64,000 nt of DNA, from NCBI GenBank assembly GCA_017479385.1, contig JAFVCE010000003.1, positions 62,001 through 126,000 of the forward strand. Direction: 5' to 3'. This DNA is from Bacteroidales bacterium. GTDB lineage: Bacteria; Bacteroidota; Bacteroidia; Bacteroidales; P3. Below, in pieces: positions 18,826 through 60,611 of the stretch. Numbering within the stretch: the first letter of the stretch is position 1; each line of letters starts with the position of its first letter. The position numbers and the translations under genes were made by a program. The notes under the pieces were generated by a model that was not told where the DNA came from, made no database searches, and saw only the letters and a program-made list of their open reading frames with translations.

Positions 18826-18908
18826 GTTAAGTGCCTCAGTATCAAGCGTTGTTCGACCTCAATACGACCTTAACCCCTCTTTAACCCCTCCTTGACCCTG
18901 GTTTTCAG
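18826..18908 (+). repeat. 83-bp convergent-gap repeat, copy 1
   Basis: It begins GTTAAGTGCCTCAGTATCAA and ends with five contiguous 11-bp units (18854-18908): CGACCTCAATA, CGACCTTAACC, CCTCTTTAACC, CCTCCTTGACC, CTGGTTTTCAG. It differs from the copy at 40268-40350 by only two bases in 83. It lies between the convergent floA and glycosyltransferase genes. Confidence 0.9.
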
Positions 18909-19048
18909 CCGGTTGCAGTTGGGAGCGCAACCGGTCGAAGTGGGGTTCGCGGAGCGTGTTCGTCTTGTCGCCTCCACTGGGCTTGGAGGTGCTGGTTGGG
19001 GGAGGGGTATAATTTGCCCGATTTTGGGCCACAGGGTAGGGGGCTTGC

Positions 19049-20513
19049 TTACTGCTCCGAGAGGCAATAAAGTTTATATTGTTGTGTGGGCAGAGGTACC
19101 TCGACGTAGCCTTCGGGGACGGAGGCTTTGCCGTCAGTGAGCAGGTGGCGGCAGGTGTCGCTCTCGCCAAGTGCGATGTGCTTGCCCAGGTAGTAGTAGA
19201 ACAGCAGCGCCCACTGGCTCCTCATGGAGTGTGGTATGCCCACGTGCTCGCCTTCGTCTACGGCCGTCAGTACCACCTCCATATCGGCCTGCAACACCTT
19301 GTCGCGGCAAAAGTGGTTGGCGTTGGCGCCGGCCACTGCCGCGGCGCTCGCCGGCAACAGCACCGCCAAAACTACGATTGTGTAGAATATAGCAGGTTTG
19401 CGCGCGGCGAGGGCAATCTGCTGCGTTAGCCGCCCAACGTAGGGCGTCATCAGCAGCGACATGGCTACAACCATATATGGGTATGCCGTAAGCAGGTAGA
19501 AGTCGCGCTGCTTGTAGCTTACCATCATCGGCACCACGCCGCACAGTCCCAGCGTCAGCATGCACATGGCCGAACGCCAGGGCAGTTGGCTCACCGGTTT
19601 TTTGCGCAGCAGCGCCACGGTCAGCGTTACCAAAACCGTACCCCATAGAGCGGCGGTGTGTATGAAATATCGGCCAACGACGTACCATCTATTCTCTACC
19701 ACGTGTACGCCCACTCCGCGCAGCACTTGGTGATGTAGGTATATGTCGAAGAAGTGCTCTGCTCGCGTATCGGTCAGCACCATCACGGCCACGGGTGCGG
19801 CAGTGGCCAAAACGGCCAGCAGCGTGAGTCCGACCATATTCACGAAACTGCCCTTGCGCAAGCCGAATATCCACAACAGAAAAGGCAGCGCCAGCGGGAA
19901 CAGGCCTGTGAAGCCTTTGGTGAGGAACGCTGCGCACAGCAGCAAGCCACCCAGCAGGTGCCACAGCCAGCGTCGCTCTTTGTGCAATATGCACAGTACG
20001 GCCCCGAGTACAAACACGGTCATGGTGCTCTCCAGCAGGCAGTTGCCCATGTGCGAAGTTACGGGGGGGGGTAAGTGTCCACATCAGCAGGGGGAGCCAG
20101 GCGGTGCGCTTCTCGCCTCCCACAACACGGTAGAGGCGAACGAGGAGCAGCGCGGCCAGCACGTATGTGAACAGGTTGTAGAGCTTTGCGGCTATATATC
20201 CTCCGCCAAAAATGCCGAACCACCAACTCATCAAAATCATTGCAAGTGGCGGGTGCTCGTAGAATTCGTTGAACATGGTGGGCGAGAGGGTCATCTCCCA
20301 CGCAGAGCCATTCCCGGCAGCCATGTTCTCGGCCACAGCGCAGTAGACGAGGCCGTCGTAAAACATACCTTTGGCCAGCAGCCGTGGCGCCACTATTAGC
20401 AGGAAGAGCCCCACCACAATTGCGTAGGGGGCCACCGCAAGTGCAATGGTCTTGTTTCTGCCGAACTGCTCGCCGGACCTTAAATCGTGCTGCTTCAGTA
20501 TTTTTAATCTCAT
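19049..20513 (-). pseudogene. GT-C (ArnT/PMT-like) glycosyltransferase, frame broken at a G9 tract
   Basis: Two overlapping frames form one membrane glycosyltransferase. The first part (20513 to about 20072) gives the N-terminal third: a first membrane segment, the acidic loop FYDGLVYCAVAENMA, and EHPPLAM, as in PMT_2/ArnT-type enzymes. The second frame (about 20068 to 19049) continues from VTSHMGNCLLES with seven or so further membrane segments. The join falls in nine consecutive C on the coding strand (20063-20071); eight would restore a protein of about 487 residues. Such enzymes use undecaprenyl-phosphate sugars to modify lipid A, glycans or proteins. The break may be true decay, phase variation or a sequencing error. 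The ATG at 20513 is chosen because upstream ATGs lie at or before the expected transcript start. Confidence 0.75.
20063..20071. repeat. G9 homopolymer tract (C9 on coding strand)
   Basis: Nine G on the plus strand lie exactly where the glycosyltransferase reading frame shifts. It is the longest G/C run seen inside a gene in the window. Confidence 0.85.
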
Positions 20514-20535
20514 AATTTTCGACATTTTCAAAATG

Positions 20536-20566
20536 CAAAGGTACGACTTTTTGCGCGACTGACAAA
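20536..20566 (-). promoter_or_regulatory. Promoter of the split glycosyltransferase gene
   Basis: On the minus strand TTTG (20563-20566) and TACCTTTG (20536-20543) are 19 bp apart, a full consensus match. The gene therefore still has a good promoter despite its broken frame. Confidence 0.75.
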
Positions 20567-20615
20567 AAAAATATGAGGCCATACTGATTTTTTTCGATTT
20601 TTGTGAATTTTTTTG

Positions 20616-20623
20616 TAATTTTG
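20616..20623 (+). promoter_or_regulatory. -7 box of the TonB-receptor operon
   Basis: TAATTTTG at 20616-20623 lies 10 bp before the ATG of the small His/Cys-rich protein. No TTTG at the usual distance was seen. Confidence 0.5.
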
Positions 20624-20633
20624 CAGTCCGATT

Positions 20634-20981
20634 ATGATGAACAAAAGGTTAAGAAATCGGATTGCGTGGCTGCTTGCAGTGGCCTATCTGCCTATGCTTA
20701 TGGCGTCGGCATTCCATGTTCATCATCAATCAGTTACCGACGATTTGGCTTGTGGCGACTGTGTGCGCCACGTGGCCCATCCAGCCCACTTCGGCCAGCA
20801 ACACAGCACGTCGCAGCCCTGCTTGGTCTGCCACATTTTGTCGTTGCCCAAGCTTTCGGCTGCCGCATTGGTGTTGATTGTGGCACCAATGATAGTGATC
20901 AGTTCATACAGCCCCTGCACCGTAGCCACACATAAGCGCCCCAGTGGGCACCTGCGGTTGCGCGCTCCTCCGGTTCTGTAA
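20634..20981 (+). CDS. Small membrane-anchored His/Cys-rich protein (DUF2946-like)
   Basis: 115 residues. A single hydrophobic N-terminal segment (about 10-26) is followed by an exported part with many possible metal ligands: FHVHH, CGDCVRHVAHPAHF and QPCLVCH. A second hydrophobic stretch (about 79-95) ends the conserved part. The layout resembles DUF2946-type proteins that accompany metal-responsive outer-membrane receptors; the match is by pattern, not by a search. A second ATG directly follows the first, so the start may be 20637. It heads an operon with the TonB-dependent receptor (59-bp gap), suggesting a metal-binding accessory role. Confidence 0.55.
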   Translation: MMNKRLRNRIAWLLAVAYLPMLMASAFHVHHQSVTDDLACGDCVRHVAHPAHFGQQHSTSQPCLVCHILSLPKLSAAALVLIVAPMIVISSYSPCTVATHKRPSGHLRLRAPPVL

Positions 20982-21040
20982 TGCCTGTTAGCGTTTGGAA
21001 ACAAAGTAGTTAACCCCAAAAAAAACAGAACCAAAGTCAA

Positions 21041-23152
21041 ATGACAGAAATTTTGATGGCTGCCATGCTGTTGGTGTCGCCGCCCGACAGTGTGAAGAGC
21101 CTCCAAACCGTCACCATCAGTGCGCGGTCGGCACAAGCGGCGAGTAGCACGCAAGGTGCTGTCGAGGTGGATGCCACCTTCCTCGAAGAGCATTTCGCGG
21201 GCAGCCTCATGCAGAGCCTCGAGGCCATACCAGGGGTCAAGGCGTCGGCCATCGGCTCGGGCCTCTCCAAACCCACAATTCGAGGTTTGGGCTATAACCG
21301 TATGGTTGTGAGCGAAGACGGCATTAAGCACGAGGGCCAGCAGTGGGGCGACGACCACGGCTTGGAGGTAGACCAGTTTGCCATCGACAAGGTCGAGGTG
21401 ATTAAGGGCCCTGCTACGCTGCTCTACGGCTCCGACGCCATTGGAGGAGTGCTGTCGCTTGCCGGCAACCGCCTGCCAGCTGCACCTTTCGAGGCCTCGG
21501 CCACCCTCTTCGGCCGCAGCAACAATGCCCAAGGCGGTTTTTCGGCCCGCGTGGCGGGCCGAAAGGATGGCTTCTTCTACAAAGCCAATCTTACTCTCTT
21601 TGACTATGCCGACTATCGTGTCCCGGCCGACAGCATTCAGTACTATTCGTACAGCATACCGCTACGCGACGGCCGCCTGCGCAACACCGCTGGCACCGAG
21701 CGCGACGGTCGCCTCATGCTGGGTTGGACCAACAACGAGAACTTCCGTACCGACCTCACTGTGAGCGACGTCTATGCTCGCAGCGGCTTTTTTGCCGATG
21801 CCCATGGCCTCGAGGTGCGCCTGTCGCAGATTGACTACGACCACTCGCCGCGCGACGTCGACCTGCCGCTGCAGTGGGTCAACCACCTCAAAGTGCAGAG
21901 CCACACCGTCTACCAGCTGGGCTCGGCCTCGCTCGAAGCCAACTTGGCTTGGCAACACAACCTGCGCGAAGAACTTTCCGAGCCCCTATCGCACGGTTTT
22001 ATGCCCACCCCGCCCGACAGCCTCGAGCGCCGGTTCGACAAGCATACCCTCAGTGCCACCGTGGGTGCCACGCTGCCAGTGGGCGAGCGCCACGAATTGC
22101 GCTTTGGTACCGCTACCGAACGCCAGCACAATCGTCGCGACGGATGGGGCTTCATTATTCCAGATTTCGAGAGTTCGGCCCTCGGTTTCTACGCCACCGA
22201 CCGTTGGGCGGTTTCGCATTCGCTCACTATCGACGGCGGCCTGCGCTACGACTTGGCCAGCATCCACACCGCTCCCTATAGCGACTGGTACCCTACGCCC
22301 GTGTCAGGCACCGATTCGGCCTACCTGTCGCGCTCGGCCGATACCACACGCCATTTCGACGCCCTAACCTGGTCGGTCGGTGCCAACTGGCATCGCGGCA
22401 ATTGGATTTTGCGCCTCAATGTGGGTAAGGCCTTTCGTGTGCCAATTGCTAAGGAGTTGGGTGCCAATGGTATAAACTATCATATTTTTCGCTACGAGCA
22501 GGGCAACGCCGACCTCGCCCCCGAGCGCTCATACCAGGTTGACCTCGGCATCGAATACGACGTAGCGCTCTTCAGCTTGCGCGTGTCGCCCTACTTTAAT
22601 TATTTCCCGAACTACATCTACCTCAACCCTACACCCAACTATGTCGAGGGGCTCCAGCTCTATCGCTACACCCAAACGCCTGCCTTGCGCTTCGGGCTCG
22701 AGGCCGAAGCCGCTTGGGCTTTTGCGCCACGTTGGGAGGCCGCACTTCGCGCCCAGTATTGCCGCTCGCGGCAGACGGGAGGCGACAAGCGTGGCTATAC
22801 CCTGCCTTTTGCCGTGCCACCTTCGGCCGACTGCGACCTGACATGGCACTACGACCGCCGCGGTTGCGGCAACTTGGGGCTGAACCTGCACGCCGTGGCG
22901 TCGCAAAACGACATTGTGCCACCCGAAAAGCCTACGCCAGGGTTCGTCACCCTGAACCTATCGGCCTCGCACCGTTTCGACCTGAACGGTGGCACGTTGG
23001 CCCTGGCTTTGCAGCTGAATAATGTGCTGAATGCTAAATATTTTGACCATACGAGCTATTATAGGCTAATCGACATTCCGGAGCCTGGCCGCAATGTCAC
23101 GCTACGCATAAAATATGAATTTAAGCAACGCAAAAAAGAGTTTGAACAATGA
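21041..23152 (+). CDS. TonB-dependent receptor, probably for a metal or metal complex
   Basis: 703 residues. A short hydrophobic leader is followed by a plug domain (about 25-150; AIPGVKASAIGSG, PTIRGLGYNRM, DKVEVIKGPATLLYGSDAIGG) and a 22-strand-type barrel that ends in a YEFKQRKKEFEQ tail. The plug has QQWGDDHGLEVD, a His/Asp-rich loop similar in character to those of zinc or copper receptors such as ZnuD; substrate choice is inferred from this and from His-rich neighbours. No carboxypeptidase-like N-terminal domain or SusD partner is present, so glycan uptake is unlikely. Its stop overlaps the next ATG (ATGA). Confidence 0.85.
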   Translation: MTEILMAAMLLVSPPDSVKSLQTVTISARSAQAASSTQGAVEVDATFLEEHFAGSLMQSLEAIPGVKASAIGSGLSKPTIRGLGYNRMVVSEDGIKHEGQQWGDDHGLEVDQFAIDKVEVIKGPATLLYGSDAIGGVLSLAGNRLPAAPFEASATLFGRSNNAQGGFSARVAGRKDGFFYKANLTLFDYADYRVPADSIQYYSYSIPLRDGRLRNTAGTERDGRLMLGWTNNENFRTDLTVSDVYARSGFFADAHGLEVRLSQIDYDHSPRDVDLPLQWVNHLKVQSHTVYQLGSASLEANLAWQHNLREELSEPLSHGFMPTPPDSLERRFDKHTLSATVGATLPVGERHELRFGTATERQHNRRDGWGFIIPDFESSALGFYATDRWAVSHSLTIDGGLRYDLASIHTAPYSDWYPTPVSGTDSAYLSRSADTTRHFDALTWSVGANWHRGNWILRLNVGKAFRVPIAKELGANGINYHIFRYEQGNADLAPERSYQVDLGIEYDVALFSLRVSPYFNYFPNYIYLNPTPNYVEGLQLYRYTQTPALRFGLEAEAAWAFAPRWEAALRAQYCRSRQTGGDKRGYTLPFAVPPSADCDLTWHYDRRGCGNLGLNLHAVASQNDIVPPEKPTPGFVTLNLSASHRFDLNGGTLALALQLNNVLNAKYFDHTSYYRLIDIPEPGRNVTLRIKYEFKQRKKEFEQ

Positions 23153-23589
23153 AAAAAATAGCGTCATTCCTTATTGCTCTCGTCCTGGCGGGCCTGTTTT
23201 TCGCGGCTTGCAACAGGGGCGATGAGTTGGCTCCCCCAAAAATTCTCCTCACCGAGGTGGGGCACGACAACAGCCACGTTGCCTACATCGGCGACGACAT
23301 TCATCTCGAGGCCGACATCGAGGCCGAAGGGCGCATTAAGTCCATCTTTGTAGAGTTGAGCCACGAAGCAGGCAACGGCTATAAGATTGTGGAAGAATGG
23401 ACCTCCGGCAAGTATATCGGCGTGAAAAACACCGAGTTCCACGAGCATATCGACATCCCCACCAACGCCCCAGAGGGTGAATACCACCTGTATTTAACCG
23501 TCGCCGACCGAGAGGGCAACCAGTCGCAGGCCTCGGCAAGCGTCGACATTCGAACCCCCAATCAGCTCCCAAACGTCAGAAAATCATGA
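23149..23589 (+). CDS. DUF4625-type lipoprotein
   Basis: 146 residues with a lipoprotein signal (lipobox FAAC, Cys21). The single Ig-like domain has HLEADIEAEGRIKSIFVELSH, EFHEHIDIP and EGEYHLYLTVADREGN, the pattern of DUF4625. Several His residues could bind metal. The ATG overlaps the receptor stop and the stop overlaps the next gene's ATG, so the three are translationally coupled. It probably sits on the outer membrane beside the receptor. Confidence 0.75.
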   Translation: MKKIASFLIALVLAGLFFAACNRGDELAPPKILLTEVGHDNSHVAYIGDDIHLEADIEAEGRIKSIFVELSHEAGNGYKIVEEWTSGKYIGVKNTEFHEHIDIPTNAPEGEYHLYLTVADREGNQSQASASVDIRTPNQLPNVRKS

Positions 23590-24062
23590 ATAGAACGTTA
23601 ACCCTCCCCAATTTGTTTCTTTTTGTAGCCGCGCTGGTTGCTCTGGCCTCGTGTGCCGATGAGCCGCGCGACGTCGAAAAACCCGCCATTACCACCGACG
23701 GCATAACCGCGCAGCCCACCGACTGCGACGCCTATCGCTCGGGCGACACCATCCACGTCTGTTACCGGCTGACCGACAACGTGGAGCTGGGCAACTTCAA
23801 CCTCGAAATCCACACCAACCACGACCACCACACCCATAGCACCTCGGCCGTGGAGTGCGACCTCGAGCCAGAGAGCCACCCCGACAACCCCTGGGTGCTG
23901 AACCGCGACTACGCCATCCCAGCCGGCACGCGCGATTACGTCATCAGCGAGGACATCGTGGTGCCAGATGGCTGCGTCACAGGCGACTACCACTTCATGA
24001 TTCGCGTCACCGACCGCGCAGGCTGGCAGGAGTTCCGCTCAGTGGCCATCAAGGTGCAGTAG
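23586..24062 (+). CDS. DUF4625-type lipoprotein with His cluster
   Basis: 158 residues with a lipoprotein signal (LASC lipobox, Cys23). The fold pattern is the same as in the preceding lipoprotein (VCYRLTDNVELGNFNLEIH ... GDYHFMIRVTDRAGWQEF). A dense cluster THNHDHHTHS-like (residues about 78-87) strongly suggests metal binding. It is the last gene of the operon, followed by a strong terminator. The function is inferred from the cluster and the receptor; the family itself is uncharacterised. Confidence 0.75.
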   Translation: MNRTLTLPNLFLFVAALVALASCADEPRDVEKPAITTDGITAQPTDCDAYRSGDTIHVCYRLTDNVELGNFNLEIHTNHDHHTHSTSAVECDLEPESHPDNPWVLNRDYAIPAGTRDYVISEDIVVPDGCVTGDYHFMIRVTDRAGWQEFRSVAIKVQ

Positions 24063-24094
24063 CTGGCACCCACGCCCCCCCCCACCCCCCCATC

Positions 24095-24130
24095 GGGCCG
24101 ACGGCAATGAGCCGTCGGCCCGTTTTTTTT
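24095..24130 (+). terminator. Intrinsic terminator of the TonB-receptor operon
   Basis: GGGCCGACGGC (24095-24105) pairs with GCCGTCGGCCC (24111-24121) around AATGA, followed by G and eight T. Confidence 0.9.
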
Positions 24131-24740
24131 GTTTGGCAACTTGCGGCAAGGGCCTACAAATTGCCCCGCAGATTTCGCCGCAGGCGCTACCAGAGTTGTG
24201 TCTCTAAACAATCTTGCGAGCAGACCCCAAGAAACATAAAAATCTGACAAAAAAGTATTCAAATCCGAGTCAAAACTATATCAACTCTTACAGTAGTAAG
24301 ACATGACTAAGAGTTGATTAAGAGAAGAGTAAGACATGAGTAAGAGATGATACGTTTAATATGCTGATTCGCAGCGAGTTATGTGTTTCTCTACTACAAA
24401 ATACTTATGTCGTTGAAAATCAGCGTTTTAAGTAAAATTTCAAAAATTCTGATTTTCCCAGAAAAAAGCCATGATTTTGCCCTCTTGGGGTGGGGGAGGA
24501 GAGGGGTGCAACAAAAGGTTGCGACCGAAGGATTTTTATCTCTTTCATAGACCGATTTTGTTTGCGAACCGACCGGGATGATGAAGTCTGTTTCTCAGGC
24601 CACGAATTGCGCCGAAAGCCACCCTCGATGAGGTTCGGAAGAAGCCTCGGTGAGCCTCGCTACACACAATTCACCATTTTTGGTTATTGCATAATATTGC
24701 CAAGATTGCGAACTTTGCAGTTCGAAAACTTAATGTGAAA
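24131..24740. other. Long intergenic region before the porin gene
   Basis: No gene is supported. It contains an 11-bp tandem array (24296-24350), an inverted repeat (24281-24317), and GCTGATT / AATCAGC arms at 24363-24369 and 24418-24424. The stretch just before the porin holds TTTTTGG and TAATATTG-like words, but with wrong spacing for a confident promoter. Confidence 0.45.
24281..24350. repeat. 11-bp tandem array (5 units) overlapping an inverted repeat
   Basis: The units at 24296-24350 are GTAAGACATGA, CTAAGAGTTGA, TTAAGAGAAGA, GTAAGACATGA and GTAAGAGATGA. TCAACTCTTA (24281-24290) is the exact reverse complement of TAAGAGTTGA (24308-24317). The sequence differs from the convergent-gap family but the 11-bp period is the same. 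Confidence 0.8.
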
Positions 24741-26021
24741 ATGAAACTATCGCGCTCTATTTCAACTTGTTGCCTGCTTGTGGCAACCCTGGCGACGGCC
24801 CAAGTTTGGGCCCAGGCCGACTCGTCTCGCGCCCCTCGCCTAACTATTGGCGGCTATGGCGAAGCCGTCTACAAATACAATTTCTATAGCGACAACATTT
24901 TTCGCTACGCCTTCCCCGACCGCTATAAAGATGCGCGCGGCCACGGACGCGTCGACCTCCCGCACGCAGTCATAATGTTGGGCTACGATTTTGGTAGCGG
25001 CTGGTCAATGGGAACCGAAATCGAGTTCGAGCATGGCGGCGTCGAAGCCGCCGTGGAAATGGAGGCCGAAGAGACCGGCGAGTTCGAGAAAGAAATCGAG
25101 CGCGGTGGCGAGGTGGCCCTCGAGCAATTCTGGGTCCAAAAGTCGTTCCGCCCCGAACTCAACCTGCGCATGGGCCACATCGTGGTGCCCGTGGGCATGA
25201 CCAATCAGAATCACACTCCAAATCAGTTCTTTACGGTCTATAGACCCGAGGGCGAAAACACCATCATGCCCTGCACCTGGCACGAAACTGGCGTAAGCCT
25301 CTGGGGCCGTTGGCGCAGCCTGCGCTACGAGGTGCAACTGCTGCCGGGACTCAATAGCAACTACTTCAACAACTCGGGGTGGGTCCATGACGGCTCGGCG
25401 TCGGCCTACGAATTCCGTCCTGCAAACAATTTGGCCACCGCCGCAAGGCTCGACTGGTGGGCCACCCCGCAGTTGCGTCTGGGCGTTAGCGCCTACGTCG
25501 GCAACTCGTTCAACAACGACATCGTCACCGACAAGCGCGAACGCTACAACGACATAACCGGAACGGTGGCCATCGCCACCTTCGATTTTGCCTATCGCTC
25601 TAATTTATTGATAGTTAGAGGCAATGCCGACTATGGCTATCTGAGCGACGCTGCCACAATCGGCCCGCGCAATCAGAACCAGAACCACAGTTCGGCCTCG
25701 CCCTATCCTCACACGCTTGTGGGCGAGAAAGCGCTGGCTTTGGGCCTCGAAGGGGGCGTAAACCTGCTCGGTTCGCGTCTCGACGGCAAACGCCTCTTCC
25801 TCTTTGGTCGCTACGACCACTACGACAGCTTCATCCCCGCCGAGGGGCAAGCCAACGTGGGCTGGGCCGAGCGCAGCTTGGTTTCGGCTGGTGTTAACTA
25901 TATGCCTCTGCCAGAGGTGATTGTGAAAGCCGAATGTGGCGTCCGCCTCCTCTCCGAGCAATATAACAACGAGCCCTATGTGGCACTCGGCATAACCTGG
26001 ACAGGCTTCTTTAAACACTAA
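24741..26021 (+). CDS. Outer-membrane porin associated with imelysin
   Basis: 426 residues from the ATG at 24741, which opens a good signal peptide (MKLSRSISTCCLLVATLATA, cleavage near VWAQ). An in-frame ATG at 24687 would add 18 residues that do not look like a signal. The mature part starts LTIGGYGEAVYKYNF and has alternating strands throughout, with MGHIVVPVGMTNQNHTP, a loop typical of OprO/OprP-like or maltoporin-like barrels. An acidic stretch (EMEAEETGEFEKEIER) is probably an extracellular loop. It is upstream of imelysin by 54 bp, so it may admit the iron species handled downstream; this is inferred. Confidence 0.75.
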   Translation: MKLSRSISTCCLLVATLATAQVWAQADSSRAPRLTIGGYGEAVYKYNFYSDNIFRYAFPDRYKDARGHGRVDLPHAVIMLGYDFGSGWSMGTEIEFEHGGVEAAVEMEAEETGEFEKEIERGGEVALEQFWVQKSFRPELNLRMGHIVVPVGMTNQNHTPNQFFTVYRPEGENTIMPCTWHETGVSLWGRWRSLRYEVQLLPGLNSNYFNNSGWVHDGSASAYEFRPANNLATAARLDWWATPQLRLGVSAYVGNSFNNDIVTDKRERYNDITGTVAIATFDFAYRSNLLIVRGNADYGYLSDAATIGPRNQNQNHSSASPYPHTLVGEKALALGLEGGVNLLGSRLDGKRLFLFGRYDHYDSFIPAEGQANVGWAERSLVSAGVNYMPLPEVIVKAECGVRLLSEQYNNEPYVALGITWTGFFKH

Positions 26022-26075
26022 ACAATGAATACGCAACTAACTAAAAATCAATAATAAATCAAAAACTAAATCACG

Positions 26076-27266
26076 ATGAAAGTTACAAAACACATCCTCT
26101 GCGTCGCGCTGGCTTCGGCCACGCTCGCTCTTGCTGCCTGCAACAATGGCAAGGAAGAAAACACTAACGACATGTCGGCCATCAACAGCGCCGCCTCACA
26201 AGTGGCTGCCAAATTTGTCGACAAAACCGTAGGCCCAACCTATAGCTCCTTGGCAGCCAGCGCCGAGCAGCTGGCTTCGCAGTTGGCCACTTTCCGCGAC
26301 GACCCCACGCAGGCCAACCTCGACGCTGCCTGCGAAACTTTTCTCGTGGCCCGTTCGTGGTGGGAAAAGAGCGAGGCTTTCCTTTTTGGCATAGCTACCG
26401 CCGAGGGCATTGACCCACACATCGACTCTTGGCCTCTCGACGCCGACGCTTTCAACGAGACCATGCGTACCCCTGGCCTCATGGCACGCCTTGCCGGAGA
26501 AGATGGCGACCTGGCTGCCGGCGAACTGGATAAGACCCTCCTCGGCTTCCACGGCATAGAGTACGTCATCTGGCGCAACGGTGAGCACCGCCAAGTGGCC
26601 GACATCGACAGCCTGTCGCGCATCTACGTCGCTGCTGTTGCTGGCGACCTTCGCAACCGTTGCTACCAGCTCGAGGTGGGTTGGCTCGGCAATAGCGCCC
26701 CCGCTGCCCATCGCGCTCTGTTTGAAGAAGGTGGTCGCCTCGAAGAACTCTCTGTCACCGTCCTGCAAGGTTCGTACAGCTATGGCGAGAACCTCAAAAA
26801 CGCTGGCAAAGCTGGCAGCACCTACGTCACCCCACTCGCTGCCGTGATGGCCATCATCGACGGCTGCAAAACCATTGCCGACGAGGTTGGAACCTCGAAG
26901 ATTGGTAAACCTGCAGGAATCGATGCCGAAACCGCCGACACCTCCTACATCGAGTCGCCCTATAGCCAAAAATCTATCGACGACTTTGTCGACAACTTCC
27001 GCAGCATTCAGAACGTGTGGTACGGTGGCGTTGAGGGTAATCGCGACGCGAACAACTCGCTCCAGACCTTTGTCAAGAATAACGTCGACGAAAAACTTGC
27101 AACCCGTGTGACCGAAGCCATTGACGACGCCATAGCCAAAATCGACGATATGACACGCCCGTTCGTCCAAAACTACACCAGCGAGAAGTGCAAAACCGCC
27201 ATCACGGCTTGCCAGAATGTCGACGCCATCTTCTCCGAGGTTAACAACGCTATCGACGAACTCTAA
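26076..27266 (+). CDS. Imelysin-family lipoprotein (iron-regulated, M75)
   Basis: 396 residues with a lipobox (LAAC, Cys22). The imelysin signature GxHxxE is present as GFHGIE (157-162), and the RSWWEKSEAFLFG segment typical of the first helical half is at about 93-105. The family is periplasmic or outer-membrane anchored and linked to iron uptake; it is not thought to be an active peptidase. The following gene encodes a di-heme oxidoreductase, a known genomic partner of imelysins. Confidence 0.88.
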   Translation: MKVTKHILCVALASATLALAACNNGKEENTNDMSAINSAASQVAAKFVDKTVGPTYSSLAASAEQLASQLATFRDDPTQANLDAACETFLVARSWWEKSEAFLFGIATAEGIDPHIDSWPLDADAFNETMRTPGLMARLAGEDGDLAAGELDKTLLGFHGIEYVIWRNGEHRQVADIDSLSRIYVAAVAGDLRNRCYQLEVGWLGNSAPAAHRALFEEGGRLEELSVTVLQGSYSYGENLKNAGKAGSTYVTPLAAVMAIIDGCKTIADEVGTSKIGKPAGIDAETADTSYIESPYSQKSIDDFVDNFRSIQNVWYGGVEGNRDANNSLQTFVKNNVDEKLATRVTEAIDDAIAKIDDMTRPFVQNYTSEKCKTAITACQNVDAIFSEVNNAIDEL

Positions 27267-27349
27267 GCACTCGAAGTGTTAATTATTCAAAAATATACAA
27301 TAAATATTACAAAACAGCGTTAAAAAGCTGTAAACACAACTTCGAAACG

Positions 27350-31243: not shown

Positions 31244-31280
31244 ACCGCCGCTCCCAACCCGACGCGCAAAACCATAAAAA

Positions 31281-31347
31281 TAACCCCTATTTAACCTCTC
31301 CAAAACAGCCTGAAAACCAGGGTTGAGGAGGGGTTAAAGAGGGGTTA
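31281..31347. repeat. Imperfect inverted repeat built from 11-bp units
   Basis: The arm at 31281-31301 (TAACCCCTATT then TAACCTCTCC) is nearly the reverse complement of 31327-31347, with two differences in 21 positions, one of them G-U compatible. The loop is 25 nt. The right arm belongs to the repeat copy at 31310-31392. Confidence 0.75.
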
Positions 31348-31392
31348 AGGTCGTATTGAGGTCGAACAACGCTTGATACAGAGCCACTTAGC
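31310..31392 (-). repeat. 83-bp convergent-gap repeat, copy 2
   Basis: Read on the minus strand it matches copies 1 and 3 along all 83 bp with a few substitutions (for example CTCAACCC in place of CTTGACCC). It lies between the convergent ccsBA and hutU genes. Confidence 0.9.
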
Positions 31393-31483
31393 CCTCGATT
31401 TTTGCCCCATCTCAGGGGCAGTTTGGCCCAATAAATATTGCAGTTCGCGAGGTGGCTACCTGCTTCTGTTCGCCACCTTAATA

Positions 31484-31528
31484 CCATAATAAAAGGGGCA
31501 TATAGGTTGCAGGAAACCTATATGCCCC
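31484..31528 (-). terminator. Intrinsic terminator of hutU
   Basis: GGGGCATATAGGTT (31495-31508) pairs with AACCTATATGCCCC (31515-31528). On the minus strand it is followed by TTTTATTAT. Confidence 0.8.
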
Positions 31529-31546
31529 ATACTTAAATAATGCTTT

Positions 31547-40165: not shown

Positions 40166-40267
40166 GCTCAAGTTCGCCCTGTGGTCGGTTTGGAGTCGGT
40201 GTCGGAAGGGGCTAATCAGTGCTTAGAAATCGATAAACGAGGCTTTCTAAATGGGCCAAAGTGGGGT

Positions 40268-40350
40268 GTTAAGTGCCTCTGTATCAAGCGTTGTTCGACC
40301 TCAATACGACCCTAACCCCTCTTTAACCCCTCCTTGACCCTGGTTTTCAG
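40268..40350 (+). repeat. 83-bp convergent-gap repeat, copy 3
   Basis: It matches copy 1 (18826-18908) at 81 of 83 positions by direct reading, including all five 11-bp units. It lies between the convergent plsY and recO genes, 16 bp after the recO stop on the recO side. Confidence 0.92.
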
Positions 40351-40366
40351 GTAGTTGAATTTATCG

Positions 40367-49518: not shown

Positions 49519-49532
49519 GCCTTCCACACAAT

Positions 49533-49574
49533 GTTGGCGAGGGCGGTGCAAACTGCCCTCGCCAACTTTTTTTT
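49533..49574 (+). terminator. Intrinsic terminator of the M16 peptidase gene
   Basis: GTTGGCGAGGGC (49533-49544) pairs with GCCCTCGCCAAC (49555-49566), followed by eight T. Confidence 0.92.
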
Positions 49575-49990
49575 ATCAGAATTCGACGGTTGCCACAGCC
49601 CGGCCTCTGCCTCGAGGCCCCGGCGGGCCTCGCTCTTTTTCCCCTCACTCATACCAAGCCCAACGCGCCGAGTCGAGCGGTTCCTACTGCCCGAATTTGG
49701 GAGGGGTATTTTCGGTTCTCAAAAAAAGTGCTACGTGGGTCTCGATTTGTAGTTTTTGGCCCTACCTAACTTCCTAATTCATAGCACTTAGGACTGGTTA
49801 AAGAGGGGTTAGGGTCGTATTGAGGTCGAATAAGGCTTGATATTCAGTCGTTTGGCCATCGATTTTTTGGCGATGTTGAGGCGAGTGCAGGGGGCAAAAA
49901 TAGCGAGGCCGAAGCGTTAGCTTCGGCCTCGTGTTCGGTTCTGCTGTCGGTGTTAACGGCTGGGCAGATTGTTGGCTTGGAGCCTTGCGG
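49575..49990. other. Convergent intergenic region with repeat copy 4
   Basis: No gene is supported. Apart from the repeat at 49796-49847, a GAGGCCG...CGGCCTC pair near 49907-49930 could form a hairpin downstream of rpmF on the minus strand. Confidence 0.4.
49796..49847 (-). repeat. Convergent-gap repeat, copy 4 (shorter)
   Basis: On the minus strand it reads ATATCAAGCCTTATTCGACC, TCAATACGACCCTAACCCCT and CTTTAACC. This is the core of the 83-bp family without the last units. It lies between the convergent M16 peptidase and rpmF genes. Confidence 0.85.
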
Positions 49991-50896: not shown

Positions 50897-50927
50897 ATTG
50901 TGCGGTGGGGCTCACGGTTTGTGCCCG

Positions 50928-51740: not shown

Positions 51741-51748
51741 TCAGGTGG

Positions 51749-54616: not shown

Positions 54617-54629
54617 TGTTTAATCCTTG

Positions 54630-55220
54630 TTATTTTTGAGTTGACAAAAGAATGGCTTGGTATATCACATTGTTAGAGGGGGAGGTAACTGTAATCTCAT
54701 TGTCATTTTCGTCGTAAACTTCTTCTTCGAAGTAGTCAGATGATGCGTAAATGGCGGTGTTGACTGTTTCGTTAGTGGTAGAGTCGTAGTAGGTTTCCTC
54801 TGTGGTGATGTAGTCTTCAGACTCGAAATAGGGGAGGCAGTAGTAGGTAGTGGTGCCATGTTTGCGGTTCACGCGCTTGAAGATGTACACGTTACGGTAA
54901 CCCCACCCTCCGTTGCTTATCTGGTAGTAGACACCCATCATGGCGCGATACAAGGGTTTGGTAGGCATCGAGTCGGAGAAGTAGATGCTGTCGAGCGTGA
55001 ACTCGCCGTTTGCCAACGAGTCGAAGGCAACGCGCAGGCGGGTGGTATCGATTAGTATGTTGATTTCGTCCCCAGCATTGTAGTTGGCAATGGCAACGGC
55101 GTTGTTGTTTGCCAACATCGAGTCGAGTTGGCGGTCGTAGTATTTCTCTGTGCGCACGCACGAGACTGCCATTATGGCGATAATTGCTACCGAGCAGGCT
55201 GTTAAGATATATTTTTTCAT
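54630..55220 (-). CDS. Unknown lipoprotein in the GntR-ABC operon
   Basis: 196 residues with a lipobox (AVSC, Cys21). Not recognised. The mature part is rich in Tyr, Asp and Thr, with INILIDTTRLRVAFDSLANG, GWGYRNVYIFKRVNRKHGTT and an acidic TTEETYYDSTTNE stretch near the end. Its ATG overlaps the stop of the GntR regulator (ATGA), so the two are translationally coupled. It may be a sensor or a substrate-binding partner of the ABC system; that is inference from position. Confidence 0.65.
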   Translation of the reverse strand: MKKYILTACSVAIIAIMAVSCVRTEKYYDRQLDSMLANNNAVAIANYNAGDEINILIDTTRLRVAFDSLANGEFTLDSIYFSDSMPTKPLYRAMMGVYYQISNGGWGYRNVYIFKRVNRKHGTTTYYCLPYFESEDYITTEETYYDSTTNETVNTAIYASSDYFEEEVYDENDNEITVTSPSNNVIYQAILLSTQK

Positions 55221-55576
55221 TGTTCTTTAGTATTTTCTTGTTGGTTAAAAATGCTTGCGTCGAGGCCTAAGTATCTCATTCGTTGCATAATGGCTGGCAA
55301 CTCTTCCTCGAGGAACTCTTTGCGATAGAGTTCTATGATTTTTTCTTTGGCGTCGGACGAAAGGAAGTAGCCCATACCGCGTTTGGTGTAGATGATGTCT
55401 GACTGTTGCAGGCTCTCGAACGAGCGCATGACGGTATTGGGGTTCACTCCAAGGCTGGCGGCCACGTCGCGCACCGAGGGTATGCGCCCGTCGGCATCCC
55501 ACTCGCCAGCCAGCGCGCGGTCGCAGAGCGACTCGGCTATCTGGAGGTATATTGTTTTTTGTTTCTTGAATTCCAT
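55217..55576 (-). CDS. GntR-family regulator, YtrA-type
   Basis: 119 residues. The winged helix-turn-helix fills about residues 8-75 (YLQIAESLCDRALAGEW, RIPSVRDVAASLGVNPNTVM, YTKRGMGYFLS). Only a short helical tail follows, which is the mark of the YtrA branch instead of FadR/HutC branches with large ligand domains. YtrA-type genes commonly lie with ABC transporter genes and repress their own operon, as the layout here suggests. Confidence 0.9.
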   Translation of the reverse strand: MEFKKQKTIYLQIAESLCDRALAGEWDADGRIPSVRDVAASLGVNPNTVMRSFESLQQSDIIYTKRGMGYFLSSDAKEKIIELYRKEFLEEELPAIMQRMRYLGLDASIFNQQENTKEQ

Positions 55577-55600
55577 AATAAAATCGTTTTTTTTACGTTA

Positions 55601-56443
55601 TTAATAACGCATCTTTTTCAGACGCAATCCGGACCACAATGTGAGGCCGACGAAGAAGATGATGTTGGTTGCGTGGCCCCAATAGTAGATATTCTGGAGT
55701 ATGAGGTCGGGGTCGTAGTTGCGCACCCATGTGTCGACAAGGCCAGAGGTCGAAAGCTCCATGAAGTGAGTGACGATGATTGGTGTGGCAATGAGCGTCA
55801 GCACAAACTCTATGGCGTAGAGAGCCAAGATGGTGAAAAGGACTTTGTGGCGTTTGAAGATGGTTGAGGTGAAGAGGAAGAGGGCCACGTTTGCCAAGTA
55901 CTCCCCAATGGACGAAACAATGACGTTGGCTGGAGTTAAGTAGCGGCCAAAGTAGTAGTAGGCCTCGTAGTCATCGCCAAAGTTGAATAACTCGTGCAAC
56001 GAGTCTGCCATGTTCCAAATGCTTGTGCGGTATGGGCCGAATGGCAAGAGAGTGAAAAACATATCGACCAGCAGACCACCAATAAGGGCCACTATGGGGC
56101 AAACCACCATAATCATGAGCAGCATACTGACGAACTTCTCCAACTTCGAGGCTGGCAGCATGGCAAAGTATATGCCATCCTTTCTAATGTTTGCGTAGCG
56201 GTATATGCGCGAGGGGGCCATGATACCCACCAATACTACCGAGAAGCAGATGAGCATAAGCCTAACCACGGGCGGTATTGATTCGATGTTGAGATGGTGC
56301 CCAAGAACGAGGACAGAGAGCCAAATCGTCATGGGTAGCAGCACGATGATGAGCATCGTGGGGCCAAACGTGGGCCAAAGTGTGGCAAGGTCGTGTTTGA
56401 CAAGTTTGCCGAAACGGTTGAGGTCAAAATTTTTTTTATTCAT
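55601..56443 (-). CDS. ABC transporter membrane protein
   Basis: 280 residues with six to seven hydrophobic segments (about 28-48, 60-78, 103-125, 175-195, 205-228 and 256-272) and no other domain. Hydrophobic pattern and partner gene match the ABC-2-like permeases found with YtrA-type regulators. It lies 26 bp after the ATPase gene and 24 bp before the GntR gene. No family motif is strong enough to predict a substrate. Confidence 0.75.
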   Translation of the reverse strand: MNKKNFDLNRFGKLVKHDLATLWPTFGPTMLIIVLLPMTIWLSVLVLGHHLNIESIPPVVRLMLICFSVVLVGIMAPSRIYRYANIRKDGIYFAMLPASKLEKFVSMLLMIMVVCPIVALIGGLLVDMFFTLLPFGPYRTSIWNMADSLHELFNFGDDYEAYYYFGRYLTPANVIVSSIGEYLANVALFLFTSTIFKRHKVLFTILALYAIEFVLTLIATPIIVTHFMELSTSGLVDTWVRNYDPDLILQNIYYWGHATNIIFFVGLTLWSGLRLKKMRY

Positions 56444-56469
56444 GACGTACTATTCTCCTATTTTTTGCG

Positions 56470-57300
56470 TTATTGGTTCATGAGTTCTTTGACACGCTTT
56501 TTGTTGTGCAGCACAGCGTTGAACAGTGCCTCGATGTTTGGCTGGCTCTCTTCGCCGCTGGTGTTGATAGTTACGTTGGTGTAGCCGCCGGGCAGCTGCT
56601 CGCTGAACAGTGCTTCGGGATTAGCCACGCCGCCATATTCGAAGAAGAATTTGCGCGAAATCTCCTCAATCGTGGCGTTAAGCAACACATCGTTGTTGGA
56701 GAGGATGATTATGGGGTCGATAAGGTTCTCGACGTCTTTAACCTGGTGGGTCGAGATGATGATGGTGCTCTCGCCGCCAATGCGCTGGGTGAGAATGCTG
56801 CGCAACTGCGACTTAGAAGGAATGTCGAGCCCGTTGGTGGGTTCGTCGAGCAACACATACTTCGTGTTGAGCGACAGGGCGCAAGCCAACAGCGACTTTT
56901 TTTGTTGGCCGAACGACATCTCTCTGAATTTGCGCTCGGGCTCCACTTCGAGCTCCTGCATCAGGTGCCTAAAGTCGTCCTCCGAGTAGTTGGGATAGAA
57001 TGGTGCCATCTCGCCCACATAGCGAATTGGGGTGCCAGAGTAGGGTAGGCGCACCTCGTCGGGCAGTAGGAAGATGTTTTGCAGCATATCGGGCTCGCGG
57101 TCGAATGCCGTAGCCCCATCTACCTCTACCGTGCCAGCGTCGGTTGGCAGCAGGCCGCAGATTAGTTTAAGCAACGTGGTTTTTCCAACCCCGTTTTCGC
57201 CCAAAAGGCCGTAAATGGCCCCCTCGCGAATGCTCAAATTGATGTTTTTCAAGACCGGTGTCGCTTTGTAGCCGAAGTCTAAGTTCTTGATTTCTATCAT
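56470..57300 (-). CDS. ABC transporter ATP-binding protein
   Basis: 276 residues. Walker A is GENGVGKTT (34-42). The signature is degenerate, SFGQQKKS in place of LSGGQ, as in many YtrB/CcmA-like exporters. Walker B is YVLLDEP, followed by TNGLDIPSK, and the switch His is in IISTHQV. It energises the neighbouring permease at the inner membrane. First gene of the operon, with a full promoter and a candidate operator just upstream. Confidence 0.92.
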   Translation of the reverse strand: MIEIKNLDFGYKATPVLKNINLSIREGAIYGLLGENGVGKTTLLKLICGLLPTDAGTVEVDGATAFDREPDMLQNIFLLPDEVRLPYSGTPIRYVGEMAPFYPNYSEDDFRHLMQELEVEPERKFREMSFGQQKKSLLACALSLNTKYVLLDEPTNGLDIPSKSQLRSILTQRIGGESTIIISTHQVKDVENLIDPIIILSNNDVLLNATIEEISRKFFFEYGGVANPEALFSEQLPGGYTNVTINTSGEESQPNIEALFNAVLHNKKRVKELMNQ

Positions 57301-57319
57301 TTTATTGTAACATTTGGTT

Positions 57320-57343
57320 AGTGTTCTACTTAACTAATACACT
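57320..57343. promoter_or_regulatory. Candidate operator for the GntR/YtrA regulator
   Basis: AGTGT (57320-57324) and ACACT (57339-57343) form an inverted pair spaced 14 bp apart. It covers the expected transcription start of the ABC operon. The half-site resembles those described for YtrA-type repressors. Binding is inferred. Confidence 0.5.
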
Positions 57344-57344
57344 G

Positions 57345-57375
57345 CAAAGATAGTACATTAATTCGATATGGCAAA
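57345..57375 (-). promoter_or_regulatory. Promoter of the ABC-GntR operon
   Basis: On the minus strand TTTG (57372-57375) and TATCTTTG (57345-57352) are 19 bp apart, a full consensus match. Confidence 0.8.
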
Positions 57376-57464
57376 ATTTTTTTTCAAAAAAATAAAAAAA
57401 AATTTCATCACACAATATTTTTCATCCGTGTGCGTTATATTAATTATTGTATATATTGTAAAAT

Positions 57465-58310
57465 ATGGAACAGAACATTGGAAACAACTTCGACCACACC
57501 GCCACGTTGCGCTTTTTTGCCCGCTGGTGGAAGGTCTTGCTTTGGGTTTTTGTGGTGGCGCTGGTGGCTTCGACGGTGGCTGCTTTCGTCATAAAGCCTC
57601 GCTACAAATCGACGGCCGTTATCTTCCCAACCAACTCGAACCGCCTGTCGAAAGCCATTATGGACTACCATTACAGCCTCGACTTTATGGACTACGGCAT
57701 TGAGCGCGACTGCGAATACGCCATCCAAATCCTCTCTTCGGCCTCGATGGAGCGCGACGTCTGCGAGTGCTTCAACTTGACTGAGCATTATGGTATCAGC
57801 CCCAACGACCCACATAAGTTGTTTAAAACCAATAAGATATATCGCAGCAATATCACCGTCAAGCGCACCGAGTTCTTGGGCGTTGAGGTGTCGGTGCTCG
57901 ACGTAGACCCGCAGTGGGCAGCCGACATTGCCAACTATATGGCTGCCAACTACGATACCCTCTGCCACCGCATTCATCACGACCGCGCCGTCAATGCCGC
58001 CGACGTTATGCAGAAAGTCTGTGCCGATATGCAAGCCCGACTCGACTCGACCGCCTCGCTCCCCACCAGCCAGTGGAAAGACCGCCTCATTGCCGCCGAA
58101 TGCGACCAACTGGCCGACCTGCAGACGCGCGCCTCGCAAACTGCTATCGACAAAGACGAGGAGGTGAGCTATAAATATATGGTAGACCAAGCTGTGCCGG
58201 CCGACAAGAAAGCCTACCCCAAGCGCCTGCTCATCATGGCCCTCGGCTCGATTGGTGCCGTGGTGATGTGTATTTTCGGCCTCCTGCTTTTCGCTAAAAA
58301 AGAGGAATAA
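57465..58310 (+). CDS. Wzz-like polysaccharide chain-length determinant
   Basis: 281 residues. One membrane helix near each end (about 24-44 and 252-275) encloses a periplasmic region that begins with KPRYKSTAVIFPTNSN, the Wzz/PCP signature. The end of the central part is helical (QWKDRLIAAECDQLADLQTRAS). There is no cytoplasmic tyrosine kinase domain. Such proteins set the length of O-antigen or capsule chains at the inner membrane. The O-antigen ligase/polymerase gene follows after 22 bp. Confidence 0.87.
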   Translation: MEQNIGNNFDHTATLRFFARWWKVLLWVFVVALVASTVAAFVIKPRYKSTAVIFPTNSNRLSKAIMDYHYSLDFMDYGIERDCEYAIQILSSASMERDVCECFNLTEHYGISPNDPHKLFKTNKIYRSNITVKRTEFLGVEVSVLDVDPQWAADIANYMAANYDTLCHRIHHDRAVNAADVMQKVCADMQARLDSTASLPTSQWKDRLIAAECDQLADLQTRASQTAIDKDEEVSYKYMVDQAVPADKKAYPKRLLIMALGSIGAVVMCIFGLLLFAKKEE

Positions 58311-58332
58311 TAACCGCTAAAAACCTCGCAAA

Positions 58333-60423
58333 ATGGGCAACCTCAAGACCTTCTGGACCAAAAACCGTGGCTTGATTACGGCGCTGCTCGTCACGCTGAT
58401 TTTCGTGGCGAGCAACACTTTTGCGTTGTCCAAAGACTTCTACTACCTCTTGTTGCTGCCGCTGGCTGGCTTGGCAGTGCTGCTTTTCGTGTTGCGATTC
58501 GAGACGGGCCTCATGGTTATGGCCATGCTCACCCCGTTGGCAGTAAACATGACGCTCCTGCCAGGTATGCAGCTCTCCATGCCCGTCGAGCCGATGATGA
58601 TTCTTTGCTCGGCGGTATTCCTCTTTCGCCTGCTGGCCGCTCGCCGCTACAATGGCTACCGCATAGACCGCCGCCTGTTGCTCCACCCAGTTACGTTGCT
58701 GCTGATGGCCTCGATTGGGTGGATGGTTGTAACCTCGTGCACCTCGCAACTGCCGTGGGTTTCGGTCAAGTATACTCTGGCCCGAGTGTGGTTCGTAACG
58801 CCATTCTTTTTTGCAGCAGCCATGATTTTTAGCAGCACCACCCGTGTTCGCCAATTTTTTTGGGCCTACGGCATTGGGCTCATCATCGTGGTGCTTATCT
58901 CGACCCTCAAAACAGTGGGCAACTTCAGCGACCTGCAAACCCTGCACCGCGTGATGAAGCCTTTCTATAACGACCACACTGCCTACGGCTGCGCCATTGC
59001 CCTGTTTCTGCCAGCGGCGTTCTACTTCATCTTCAGCCGCAACAGCAAAGGCTGGATGAGACTCCTCTCGTTCGCCCTGTTCGGCCTGCTGTTGGTGGGC
59101 TTGCTGTTCAGCTACTGCCGTGCTGCATGGCTCAGCGTGCTGGCCGCTGTGGCGGTATATGTGGCGGTGCGTATGGGCATGAAAGTTAAGTGGATGATGC
59201 TCCTGTTTGGTCTTTTTGTGGGCGCTTTCTTTGTCTATCAGGGCGACGTGCTCTACAAGCTGGGAAAGAACAAACAGGATTCGTCGTACGACTTGGCCGA
59301 CCAGGTTAAGTCTATCTCGAACATCTCGACCGACGCCAGCAACCTCGAGCGCCTCAACCGCTGGGCCTCGGCGCTGCGTATGTGGAAAGAGCGCCCCGTG
59401 TTTGGCACAGGCCCTGGCACCTACCAGTTTCTCTACGCCTCCTATCAGCGCTCCTATCAGCTTTCGACCATCAGCACCAACGCTGGCGACCTCGGCAACG
59501 CCCATAGCGAATATATTGGCCCCCTCACCGAGCAGGGCGTTCCTGGCGTGGCACTCGTGGTGGCCCTTTTTATGACCACCTTTGCCACCGGTGTGCGCGT
59601 CTACCGAACGGCACGCGACCGCAGTGTGGCCAACATGACGCTTGCCTTCACCCTCAGCCTGCTCACCTACTATGTGCACGGTGTGTTCAACAATTTTCTC
59701 GATACCGATAAGCTCTCGGTTCCCTTCTGGGCATTCACGGCCGTAGTGGTAGCGATGGATGTTAGGTTGAGGATTGAAAAACAGGAAGATACGAGCATCG
59801 AGCCATCAACCCCCAAGCCCGTTAGGCAACCCAAGACAGGGCTGACGGCAGTGGCGCTTCTCTTTTTTTGCCTCGCTGGCGTAGGGTCGCTTTGGGCGCA
59901 AAATGTCGAGTCGCCCACCCAGCCGTGGCGCATAGACCTGCCGGCCCAGTTCGACAGCCAAGCCCGACAAACGGCAAACCTCTGGCCATATCCGGCTGTG
60001 GCGGCGGTGCCCGACTCGGGGGCTATGCTCGTGGCCGAAGGGCTGAAGTATCTCGGCACACCCTACAAGTATGGCGCCAAAGGCCCGAAGGCTTTCGACT
60101 GCGCTGGCTTTGCCCGCTATGTCTACCTCAAGTTTGGGCACACGTTGCCCTCCTACAGCGGCGGCCAGTACCACGCGGGACACCGCGTAACCGACAGTAG
60201 GCAGCTGCGCGCAGGCGACCTCGTCTTTTTCGGCGGACGCCGCCACACTGGCACCGTGGGACACACTGGCATCGTGACCGAGGCCGACTCCACGTCGGGC
60301 ACCTTCCGCTTTGTTCATGCTGCCACTCACGGTGGCGTTATCGTTTCGCGTTCCACCGAACCCTACTACGCAAAACGCTACATCGGTGCCTGCCGCATCT
60401 TCGTCGACCCGGAAAACCACTAA
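58333..60423 (+). CDS. O-antigen ligase/polymerase (Wzy_C) fused to NlpC/P60 peptidase
   Basis: 696 residues in one uninterrupted frame. Residues about 10-475 form a polytopic O-antigen ligase/polymerase with some twelve membrane segments and the WaaL/Wzy-type loop (RLNRWASALRMWKERPVFGTGPGTY reduced here to FGTGPGTYQFLY; then NAHSEYIGPLTEQGVPG). A hydrophilic linker (about 477-499) and a hydrophobic stretch with a signal-peptide look (TGLTAVALLFFCLAGVGSLW, then AQ) come next. Residues about 560-692 are an NlpC/P60 domain: catalytic Cys590 in DCAGFARY, a His in GHTGIVTEA and another in FVHAATHGG. The first part joins or polymerises surface polysaccharide; the second would cut peptidoglycan stem peptides in the periplasm. 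The fusion is unusual. Confidence 0.85.
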   Translation: MGNLKTFWTKNRGLITALLVTLIFVASNTFALSKDFYYLLLLPLAGLAVLLFVLRFETGLMVMAMLTPLAVNMTLLPGMQLSMPVEPMMILCSAVFLFRLLAARRYNGYRIDRRLLLHPVTLLLMASIGWMVVTSCTSQLPWVSVKYTLARVWFVTPFFFAAAMIFSSTTRVRQFFWAYGIGLIIVVLISTLKTVGNFSDLQTLHRVMKPFYNDHTAYGCAIALFLPAAFYFIFSRNSKGWMRLLSFALFGLLLVGLLFSYCRAAWLSVLAAVAVYVAVRMGMKVKWMMLLFGLFVGAFFVYQGDVLYKLGKNKQDSSYDLADQVKSISNISTDASNLERLNRWASALRMWKERPVFGTGPGTYQFLYASYQRSYQLSTISTNAGDLGNAHSEYIGPLTEQGVPGVALVVALFMTTFATGVRVYRTARDRSVANMTLAFTLSLLTYYVHGVFNNFLDTDKLSVPFWAFTAVVVAMDVRLRIEKQEDTSIEPSTPKPVRQPKTGLTAVALLFFCLAGVGSLWAQNVESPTQPWRIDLPAQFDSQARQTANLWPYPAVAAVPDSGAMLVAEGLKYLGTPYKYGAKGPKAFDCAGFARYVYLKFGHTLPSYSGGQYHAGHRVTDSRQLRAGDLVFFGGRRHTGTVGHTGIVTEADSTSGTFRFVHAATHGGVIVSRSTEPYYAKRYIGACRIFVDPENH

Positions 60424-60548
60424 ACTCCAGCAAAAATATCCCCTCTCTCGGCACAAAAAGCCACTTTTGTCCGATAAACAACTGACAATCATCCGGTTAT
60501 GTTCGAAAAACCATCGGGAAACGGGGCCTTTTTTGCCGTTTTGTAACT

Positions 60549-60611
60549 GCTTGAATATCAAGCCTTGTTCGACCTCAATACGACCCTAACCCCTCCTTAA
60601 CCCGACCGAAG
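60549..60611 (+). repeat. Convergent-gap repeat, copy 5
   Basis: It starts with a perfect small hairpin GCTTGA-ATA-TCAAGC (60549-60563), then CTTGTTCGACCTCAATACGA and CCCTAACCCCTCCTTAACCC. It has lost one middle unit relative to copies 1-3. It lies between the convergent O-antigen ligase and msrA genes. Confidence 0.85.

Follow-up and report, generated by a model that had tools for sequence, protein, structure and literature searches.

Phased 11-bp repeats at regular distances along a Bacteroidota chromosome: candidate chromosome-architecture sites

The window analysed here is a stretch of 64,000 bp (G000:C19:62001-126000) from G000, a 2.28-Mb draft genome of a member of the Bacteroidota with genes for the type IX secretion system (T9SS). 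It contains a dispersed repeat with a conserved core composed of 11-bp units, and five copies of this repeat lie in gaps between convergent genes. What places such a copy between two facing genes, and what does it do there? The copies belong to a large family that prefers convergent gaps, and its sites follow each other along the chromosome at distances of about 9 kb, far more evenly than random placement would yield. We favour the reading that these phased 11-bp sites are regularly placed chromosome-architecture sites, either anchors or supercoil barriers, with a confidence that stays somewhat below even.

Copy number and placement relative to genes

An 18-bp core pattern with at most three mismatches has 247 matches in the genome (131 forward, 116 reverse), and the reversed pattern has 0 on either strand. 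This confirms that the five window copies are members of a large family, far beyond chance. The detailed analysis covers 1.58 Mb (69% of the genome), for which genes were called with an in-house codon model and copies were located by a position weight matrix (PWM) scan. It yields 469 in-phase matches with a score above 12, corresponding to 172 distinct sites. With the reversed matrix, 14 matches exceed 12, nine exceed 14, three exceed 16, one exceeds 18 and none exceeds 20, so that the class between 12 and 20 includes chance matches. Core copies at C7:181, C8:93 and C1:95 adjoin contig ends. Therefore, the repeats may break the assembly.

Among gaps of at least 100 bp, 79 of 107 convergent, 50 of 283 tandem and seven of 118 divergent ones contain a copy. 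Another 23 sites are located inside called genes and five at contig ends. When tRNA genes are added, the copy-bearing gaps amount to 80/111, 48/284 and 8/121, respectively (Fisher p 1e-31). Gap length alone predicts 39 of 139 copies in convergent gaps, with a maximum of 56 in 2000 draws, and 82 are observed. In addition, only one convergent gap, that of an array on contig C3, holds more than one copy, compared to 17 such gaps on average and at least 10 when 79 copies are placed by length. Random neutral insertion is rejected by these one-copy-per-gap statistics and by the spacing described below. The preliminary description, based on the window, had assigned a copy to every convergent gap. Genome-wide, the preference holds, but 'every' is too strong: 28 convergent gaps lack a core copy, three of which hold arrays of a second family.

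In the window, the five copies known previously are located at 18825-18911 (+, PWM score 79.3; convergent gap 18664-19048), 31307-31393 (-, 77.8; gap 31244-31546), 40267-40353 (+, 78.5; gap 40166-40366), 49771-49857 (-, 70.8; gap 49519-49990) and 60541-60627 (+, 66.9; gap 60424-60644). Places and strands are as claimed, and the exact TTCGACCTCAATACGACC core is found at 18852+, 31349-, 40294+, 49813- and 60568+. The count of five was incomplete. A sixth copy (11513-11599, +, PWM 53.3; core at 11540) lies in the divergent gap 11274-11759, so that the proposed absence from divergent gaps is true only for the four gaps named at that time. The three core-type units CGACCTCAATA CGACCTTAACC CGACCTTGGCC (2835-2867, +, PWM 43.7), also overlooked, are located in the DUF4131 stretch of a comEC-type gene (1470-3020, -). 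One copy per convergent gap applies to the five window gaps of at least 200 bp. It does not apply to a sixth gap of 109 bp (4331-4439), where no copy is present between a tRNA gene (4253-4327) and the facing gene 4440-7064. The alternating orientation is not general either: convergent gaps contain 41 copies in plus and 41 in minus orientation, and the two neighbouring window copies at 11540 and 18852 share the plus orientation.

Comparison of copy orientation with GC skew yields p values between 0.002 and 0.27 across three sizes of the skew window. Since p varies with this size and the skew follows the coding strand, the result is not used here. The skew itself is unusual: most G000 genes occupy the strand on which C exceeds G in the 30-kb surroundings (913 vs. 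462).

The 11-bp rhythm of the element

The core is composed of the 11-bp units CGACCTCAATA, CGACCTTAACC and CCTCYTTAACC. In 175 copies, a single base accounts for 93-99% at 14 of the core positions 2-17 and for 74% and 83% at the other two, and the flanks are looser. Convergent gaps display an 11-bp rhythm whose strongest section is the core. In the non-coding GC content of 77 aligned convergent-gap copies, this rhythm extends from about -150 to +115, i.e. over ~265 bp, and the gap 18664-19048 provides a window example of its continuation beyond the core. Hence, the length originally assigned to the element was too short. The blocks -150..-100, -110..-55, -66..-11 and 60..115 lie above all 1000 shuffles, block 24..68 equals the shuffle maximum, the core block and 100..155 are just below it, and -200..-150 is marginal. 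Columns -150..-27 and 60..115 are independent of the copy search. Coding DNA mostly lacks the rhythm and displays a weak signal at -300..-200 (0.048, shuffle maximum 0.039). Identity within convergent gaps at lags 11, 22 and 33 is 0.331, 0.314 and 0.295 compared to about 0.26, and lag 33 lies above lags 32 and 34. This means, the step is 11.0 bp. When low-complexity stretches are excluded, strong 11-bp segments are found in 92 of 508 gaps, and periods of 9, 10, 12 and 13 bp yield 0, 3, 3 and 1. Phasing over ~265 bp suggests wrapping of the DNA or a head-to-tail protein array.

Long arrays with higher-order units of 33 or 44 bp (CGATGTTAACA GCACCTTAATA CGACCTTAACC ACTCCTTGACC) are present at C3:98100-98450, C16:41205, C16:52544 and C1:115653. 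Two of these four follow similar, duplicate-looking gene ends.

A narrower form of the architecture reading regards the elements as strong gyrase sites: the arms would wrap the GyrA C-terminal domains, the core would be cut and positive supercoils would be removed. In E. coli, the gyrase motif comprises a centre (-16..19) and two arms (-63..-17 and 20..66) with a 10.75-bp period, and BIME-2, a type of bacterial interspersed mosaic element (BIME), attracts gyrase and is enriched in cleavage sites (PMC6379681). The G000 element shares with this motif, and with the strong gyrase site of Mu, the phased GC rhythm and the two arms around a centre (PMC6379681). Furthermore, it is placed between convergent genes, the G000 GyrA has the complete six C-terminal repeats, and dyad-symmetric arrays occur in the congener G012 (see below). 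However, the step is 11.0 and not 10.75 bp, the rhythm spans about 265 and not 130 bp, i.e. twice the gyrase footprint, and the letters are strongly conserved within the species. An ordinary GyrA would also leave the restriction to one genus unexplained. We regard this form as unlikely.

A role as Rho-dependent or other transcription terminator is very improbable, although the element sits at gene ends and one of its strands is rich in C, poor in G and stepped at 11 nt. Of 55 tandem-gap cases, 37 have this C-rich strand oriented against the genes (p=0.014). This orientation rejects or at least weakens a Rho site. RNA hairpins and hairpin-type terminators are rejected because 25 copies fold no better than their single-base shuffles on both strands (mean z -0.15 and -0.36). 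Within the element, no G+C-rich hairpin with a T-run is found, as would be expected for an intrinsic terminator. Instead, separate hairpin terminators precede the core from one or the other side in 27 and 33 of 79 gaps, and from both sides in 10. Moreover, copies are also present in genes and divergent gaps, and termination leaves the even spacing unexplained. Protection of mRNA 3' ends or termination, which had been proposed for the element, is unsupported since folding does not exceed shuffles and some copies are located inside genes.

Even spacing along the chromosome

The 169 sites used for the spacing tests have a mean distance of 8858 bp (median 8098) and a coefficient of variation (CV) of 0.489. 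Here, the C3 array (98.1-98.4 kb) with its four matches enters as a single site, and the copy-free block C3:1-97000 is excluded. Uniform placement results in a CV of 0.97 with a minimum of 0.80, and the convergent gaps themselves have a CV of 0.654. For gap-located copies alone, the CV is 0.513. Permutation of these copies within classes of gaps alike in type and length gives a mean of 0.799 and, in 1000 permutations, a minimum of 0.657. Only four spacings are below 3 kb, compared to a permutation mean of 22.5 and a minimum of 12.

Tandem-gap copies, in-gene copies and the second family fill holes between sites. Tandem gaps with a copy are 5.8 kb away from the nearest convergent gap (n=45), those without a copy 3.4 kb (n=129; p=0.0003). 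In-gene copies have a median distance of 5.7 kb to gap copies (n=22), and for random gene positions this distance is 3.0 kb, with a 99% level of 4.8 and a maximum of 6.0 kb in 500 draws. In 25 intervals longer than 12.5 kb, the best weaker match of the central third, in most cases a poor one, surpasses that of the two flanking sixths (p=0.001) and that of the reversed matrix (p=0.003).

The second family (unit TAAGAGATGAG) comprises eight arrays in this genome. Seven of them have their closest core copy at a distance of 4.7-9.6 kb; the remaining one and a core copy are fused in register. The median distance of all eight is 6.1 kb vs. 2.8 kb for 224 copy-free gaps. One array (24297-24351, +, unit near TAAGAGATGAG) resides in a tandem gap of the window, with the closest core copy 5.5 kb away. 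Addition of the seven arrays lowers the CV to 0.464, a value that none of 1000 additions of seven random copy-free gaps reaches. The even spacing, the filled holes and the in-gene sites would all be explained if selection kept a DNA site at a certain distance.

The block C3:1-97000 (L071-L075) has a GC content of 0.48, a third-position GC of 0.57 (elsewhere 0.67-0.71) and no core copy. It may be a contaminant, a misassembly or a piece transferred from a congener. It contains nine arrays of other units, 9.3 kb apart with a CV of 0.18, and 0.0004 of the null draws are as low (mean 0.78), where the null consists of random gaps of at least 100 bp, unmatched in type and length, at a single threshold choice (0.6).

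The in-gene sites, 18 of 23 of which score above 20 in the PWM, although some of the host genes are short, weak open reading frames, also bear on a rather improbable alternative: non-autonomous mobile repeats that confer insertion immunity over long distances and persist chiefly in convergent gaps. The copies are dispersed and near-identical, inverted-repeat-like end boxes (TAACTGCYTGA..., ...TCAGGCAGTTA) are present in many of the 35 copies shown, and G012 has a perfectly palindromic family. In folC, eleven CGA-type units lie within the reading frame. In seven congeners, the folC alignment ends near residue 226-233 and restarts at 263-278 with 6-87 bp between, which means that most of the array-bearing stretch is missing. 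By contrast, the alignment of five other congeners is continuous and differs little in length (from 10 codons shorter to 12 longer). With seven broken and five continuous alignments, the evidence on insertion of the array is mixed there. At two further sites, the surrounding stretch aligns unbroken: in a WecB-like gene in seven congeners (3 codons shorter to 17 longer) and in a glycosyltransferase gene (a weaker site, PWM 19) in 13 congeners, with breaks elsewhere in two others. Since these alignments contain no inserted segment, both sites probably arose by substitution. Mobility is further opposed by the core, rhythm and gap length being in register. In addition, immunity would have to cross families of unlike letters, because the second family avoids the core and, in G012, 31 of 41 neighbouring array pairs are mixed. 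Finally, the Y1 transposase (PF01797) associated with repetitive extragenic palindromes (REP) has 0 matches in the genome in a search whose controls were positive in five of 14. On this basis, a REP system with its RAYT transposase is rejected.

Related genomes and possible function

In each of 24 congeners, the core has 1 to 5 matches, which corresponds to the level of the reversed control. They lack this core and carry 11-bp arrays of other units instead. Ten named congener loci contain 13 period-11 segments in five loci, some of which adjoin runs of N; the periods 8, 9, 10, 12, 13 and 14 yield 7, 0, 2, 0, 0 and 6. In 33 small congener loci, tandem gaps display a lag-11 signal (0.322 vs. 0.284), and that of divergent gaps is weak (0.301 vs. 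0.286). In the three longest stretches of G012, two spacings below 3 kb are found vs. 8.3 expected (p=0.003). Two other settings yield 0 vs. 6.2 and 3 vs. 8.2 (p=0.015). Convergent preference is a property of the G000 family. A comparison of orthologous gaps between both genomes matched 374 of 1344 genes (median identity 58%) and only two adjacent convergent pairs. G012 also has a family of perfect palindromes of ~120 bp, built of 11-bp units (ACGGTAGTATT) and dispersed over gaps of every type, e.g. at L153:15264-15386 and L159:1918-2209.

Sixteen stretches from other families of the order give no lag-11 signal above background (0.292 vs. 0.292). Among named relatives at 73-85%, 70 loci contain nine segments, including clear arrays in two Flavobacteriaceae, L231 (Subsaxibacter) and L259 (Bizionia arctica). 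These 11-bp arrays may be due to chance or part of a wider phenomenon. One array unit (TTAAGGTC...) is close to the reverse complement of the G000 unit.

Positive supercoils collect between convergent genes (PMC8360656), a BIME impedes supercoil diffusion, and ~600 BIMEs have been proposed to form domain borders (PMC6907758). For the supercoil domains of bacteria, lengths of 10-400 kb have been described, with borders that are placed at random and whose identity is not established (PMC6907758). Together with the phased arms of gyrase sites, these data lead to the proposal of regularly placed topological anchors. Among the roles proposed earlier, supercoil relief or topological separation fits best, mainly because of the even ~9-kb spacing, although it is still conjecture. 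A candidate protein or complex would nucleate on the core and wrap or polymerise along the phased arms with one contact per helical turn. By pinning its site, it would divide the chromosome into roughly equal segments, and supercoils gathering between converging genes would be blocked or absorbed at the sites. If no convergent gap is available at the right distance, a site would be kept in a tandem gap or a gene. The least certain parts are the topological nature of the effect and the binder, which might be a genus-specific reader of 11-bp head-to-tail units or DNA gyrase. A protein of the OmpR/PmrA type that reads 11-bp direct repeats is a possible candidate. Any barrier function is inferred, and so is what drives the rapid letter change.

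Slightly more tentative is the extension to the genus: a chromosome ruler with sites ~9 kb apart, whose letters vary by species and whose 11-bp step and spacing stay constant, would delimit near-equal topological domains. If this is true, domain size, border proteins and the effects of shifting a border become directly testable, and DNA would seem to be selected for the distance to its neighbour and for helical phase, not for fixed letters.

Several observations weigh against the architecture reading. G012 arrays lack convergent bias (12/32 convergent, 38/148 tandem and 22/58 divergent gaps in 782 kb). Their CV of 0.740 in the three longest stretches is not significantly below the null of 0.863, with 14% of shuffles as low. 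No lag-11 signal is found in the 12 convergent gaps of the 33 small congener loci (0.257 vs. 0.268). In G000, the distance of the 12 strongest in-gene copies, 5.8 kb, is just under the 99% random level of 6.0 kb. Core conservation is partly built in, as copies were selected by core match, and the gene calls are in-house, with at least one copy misplaced by the caller (2835-2867, put in a tandem gap).

Even spacing and species-specific letters also recall DNA uptake or self-recognition sequences for transformation, which have species dialects and would occur about once per transforming fragment. Like the uptake sequences of Pasteurellaceae and Neisseriaceae (USS/DUS, uptake signal sequences/DNA uptake sequences), the G000 sites have many copies. 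Some authors call uptake sequences significantly evenly spaced, others less even than compaction requires (PMC1939737). The G000 sites combine even spacing with high copy number, the dialects vary among species, and ComEC is present. However, the patterned region is much longer than in USS/DUS and lies mainly in gaps. Neither an 11-bp rhythm of ~265 bp nor a presence in 74% of convergent gaps is known from uptake sequences. No type IV pilus or type II ATPase scores above the cut-off in a search with a single family (PF00437, best 17.7 vs. 24.9 bits), which only weakens a pilus uptake signal. We consider this explanation quite unlikely.

Compared with other known systems, the G000 element resembles REP/BIME of enterobacteria as a dispersed intergenic repeat with hundreds of copies per genome. 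It differs by arrays of 11-bp units instead of REP hairpins (the 25 folded copies have no imperfect hairpin of the REP type beyond shuffles), the lack of a RAYT gene, the even ~9-kb spacing, in-gene copies and the replacement of letters between species of one genus. The general ~11-bp periodicity of intergenic DNA, e.g. in E. coli, is likewise concentrated between genes (PMC516772, PMC4132750), whereas here discrete arrays with recognisable species-specific units occupy regular places. In the literature searched, outside which most subscription literature lies, no paper on intergenic repeats of 11 bp, on proteins that read such units head to tail or on architecture sites at even distances was recognised as describing this element. 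One window protein matches named metagenome-assembled genomes of rumen and gut Bacteroidales (UBA3684 95%, UBA3834 94%, RUG429 94%, RGIG2655 93% and Candidatus Colimorpha pelethequi 89%).

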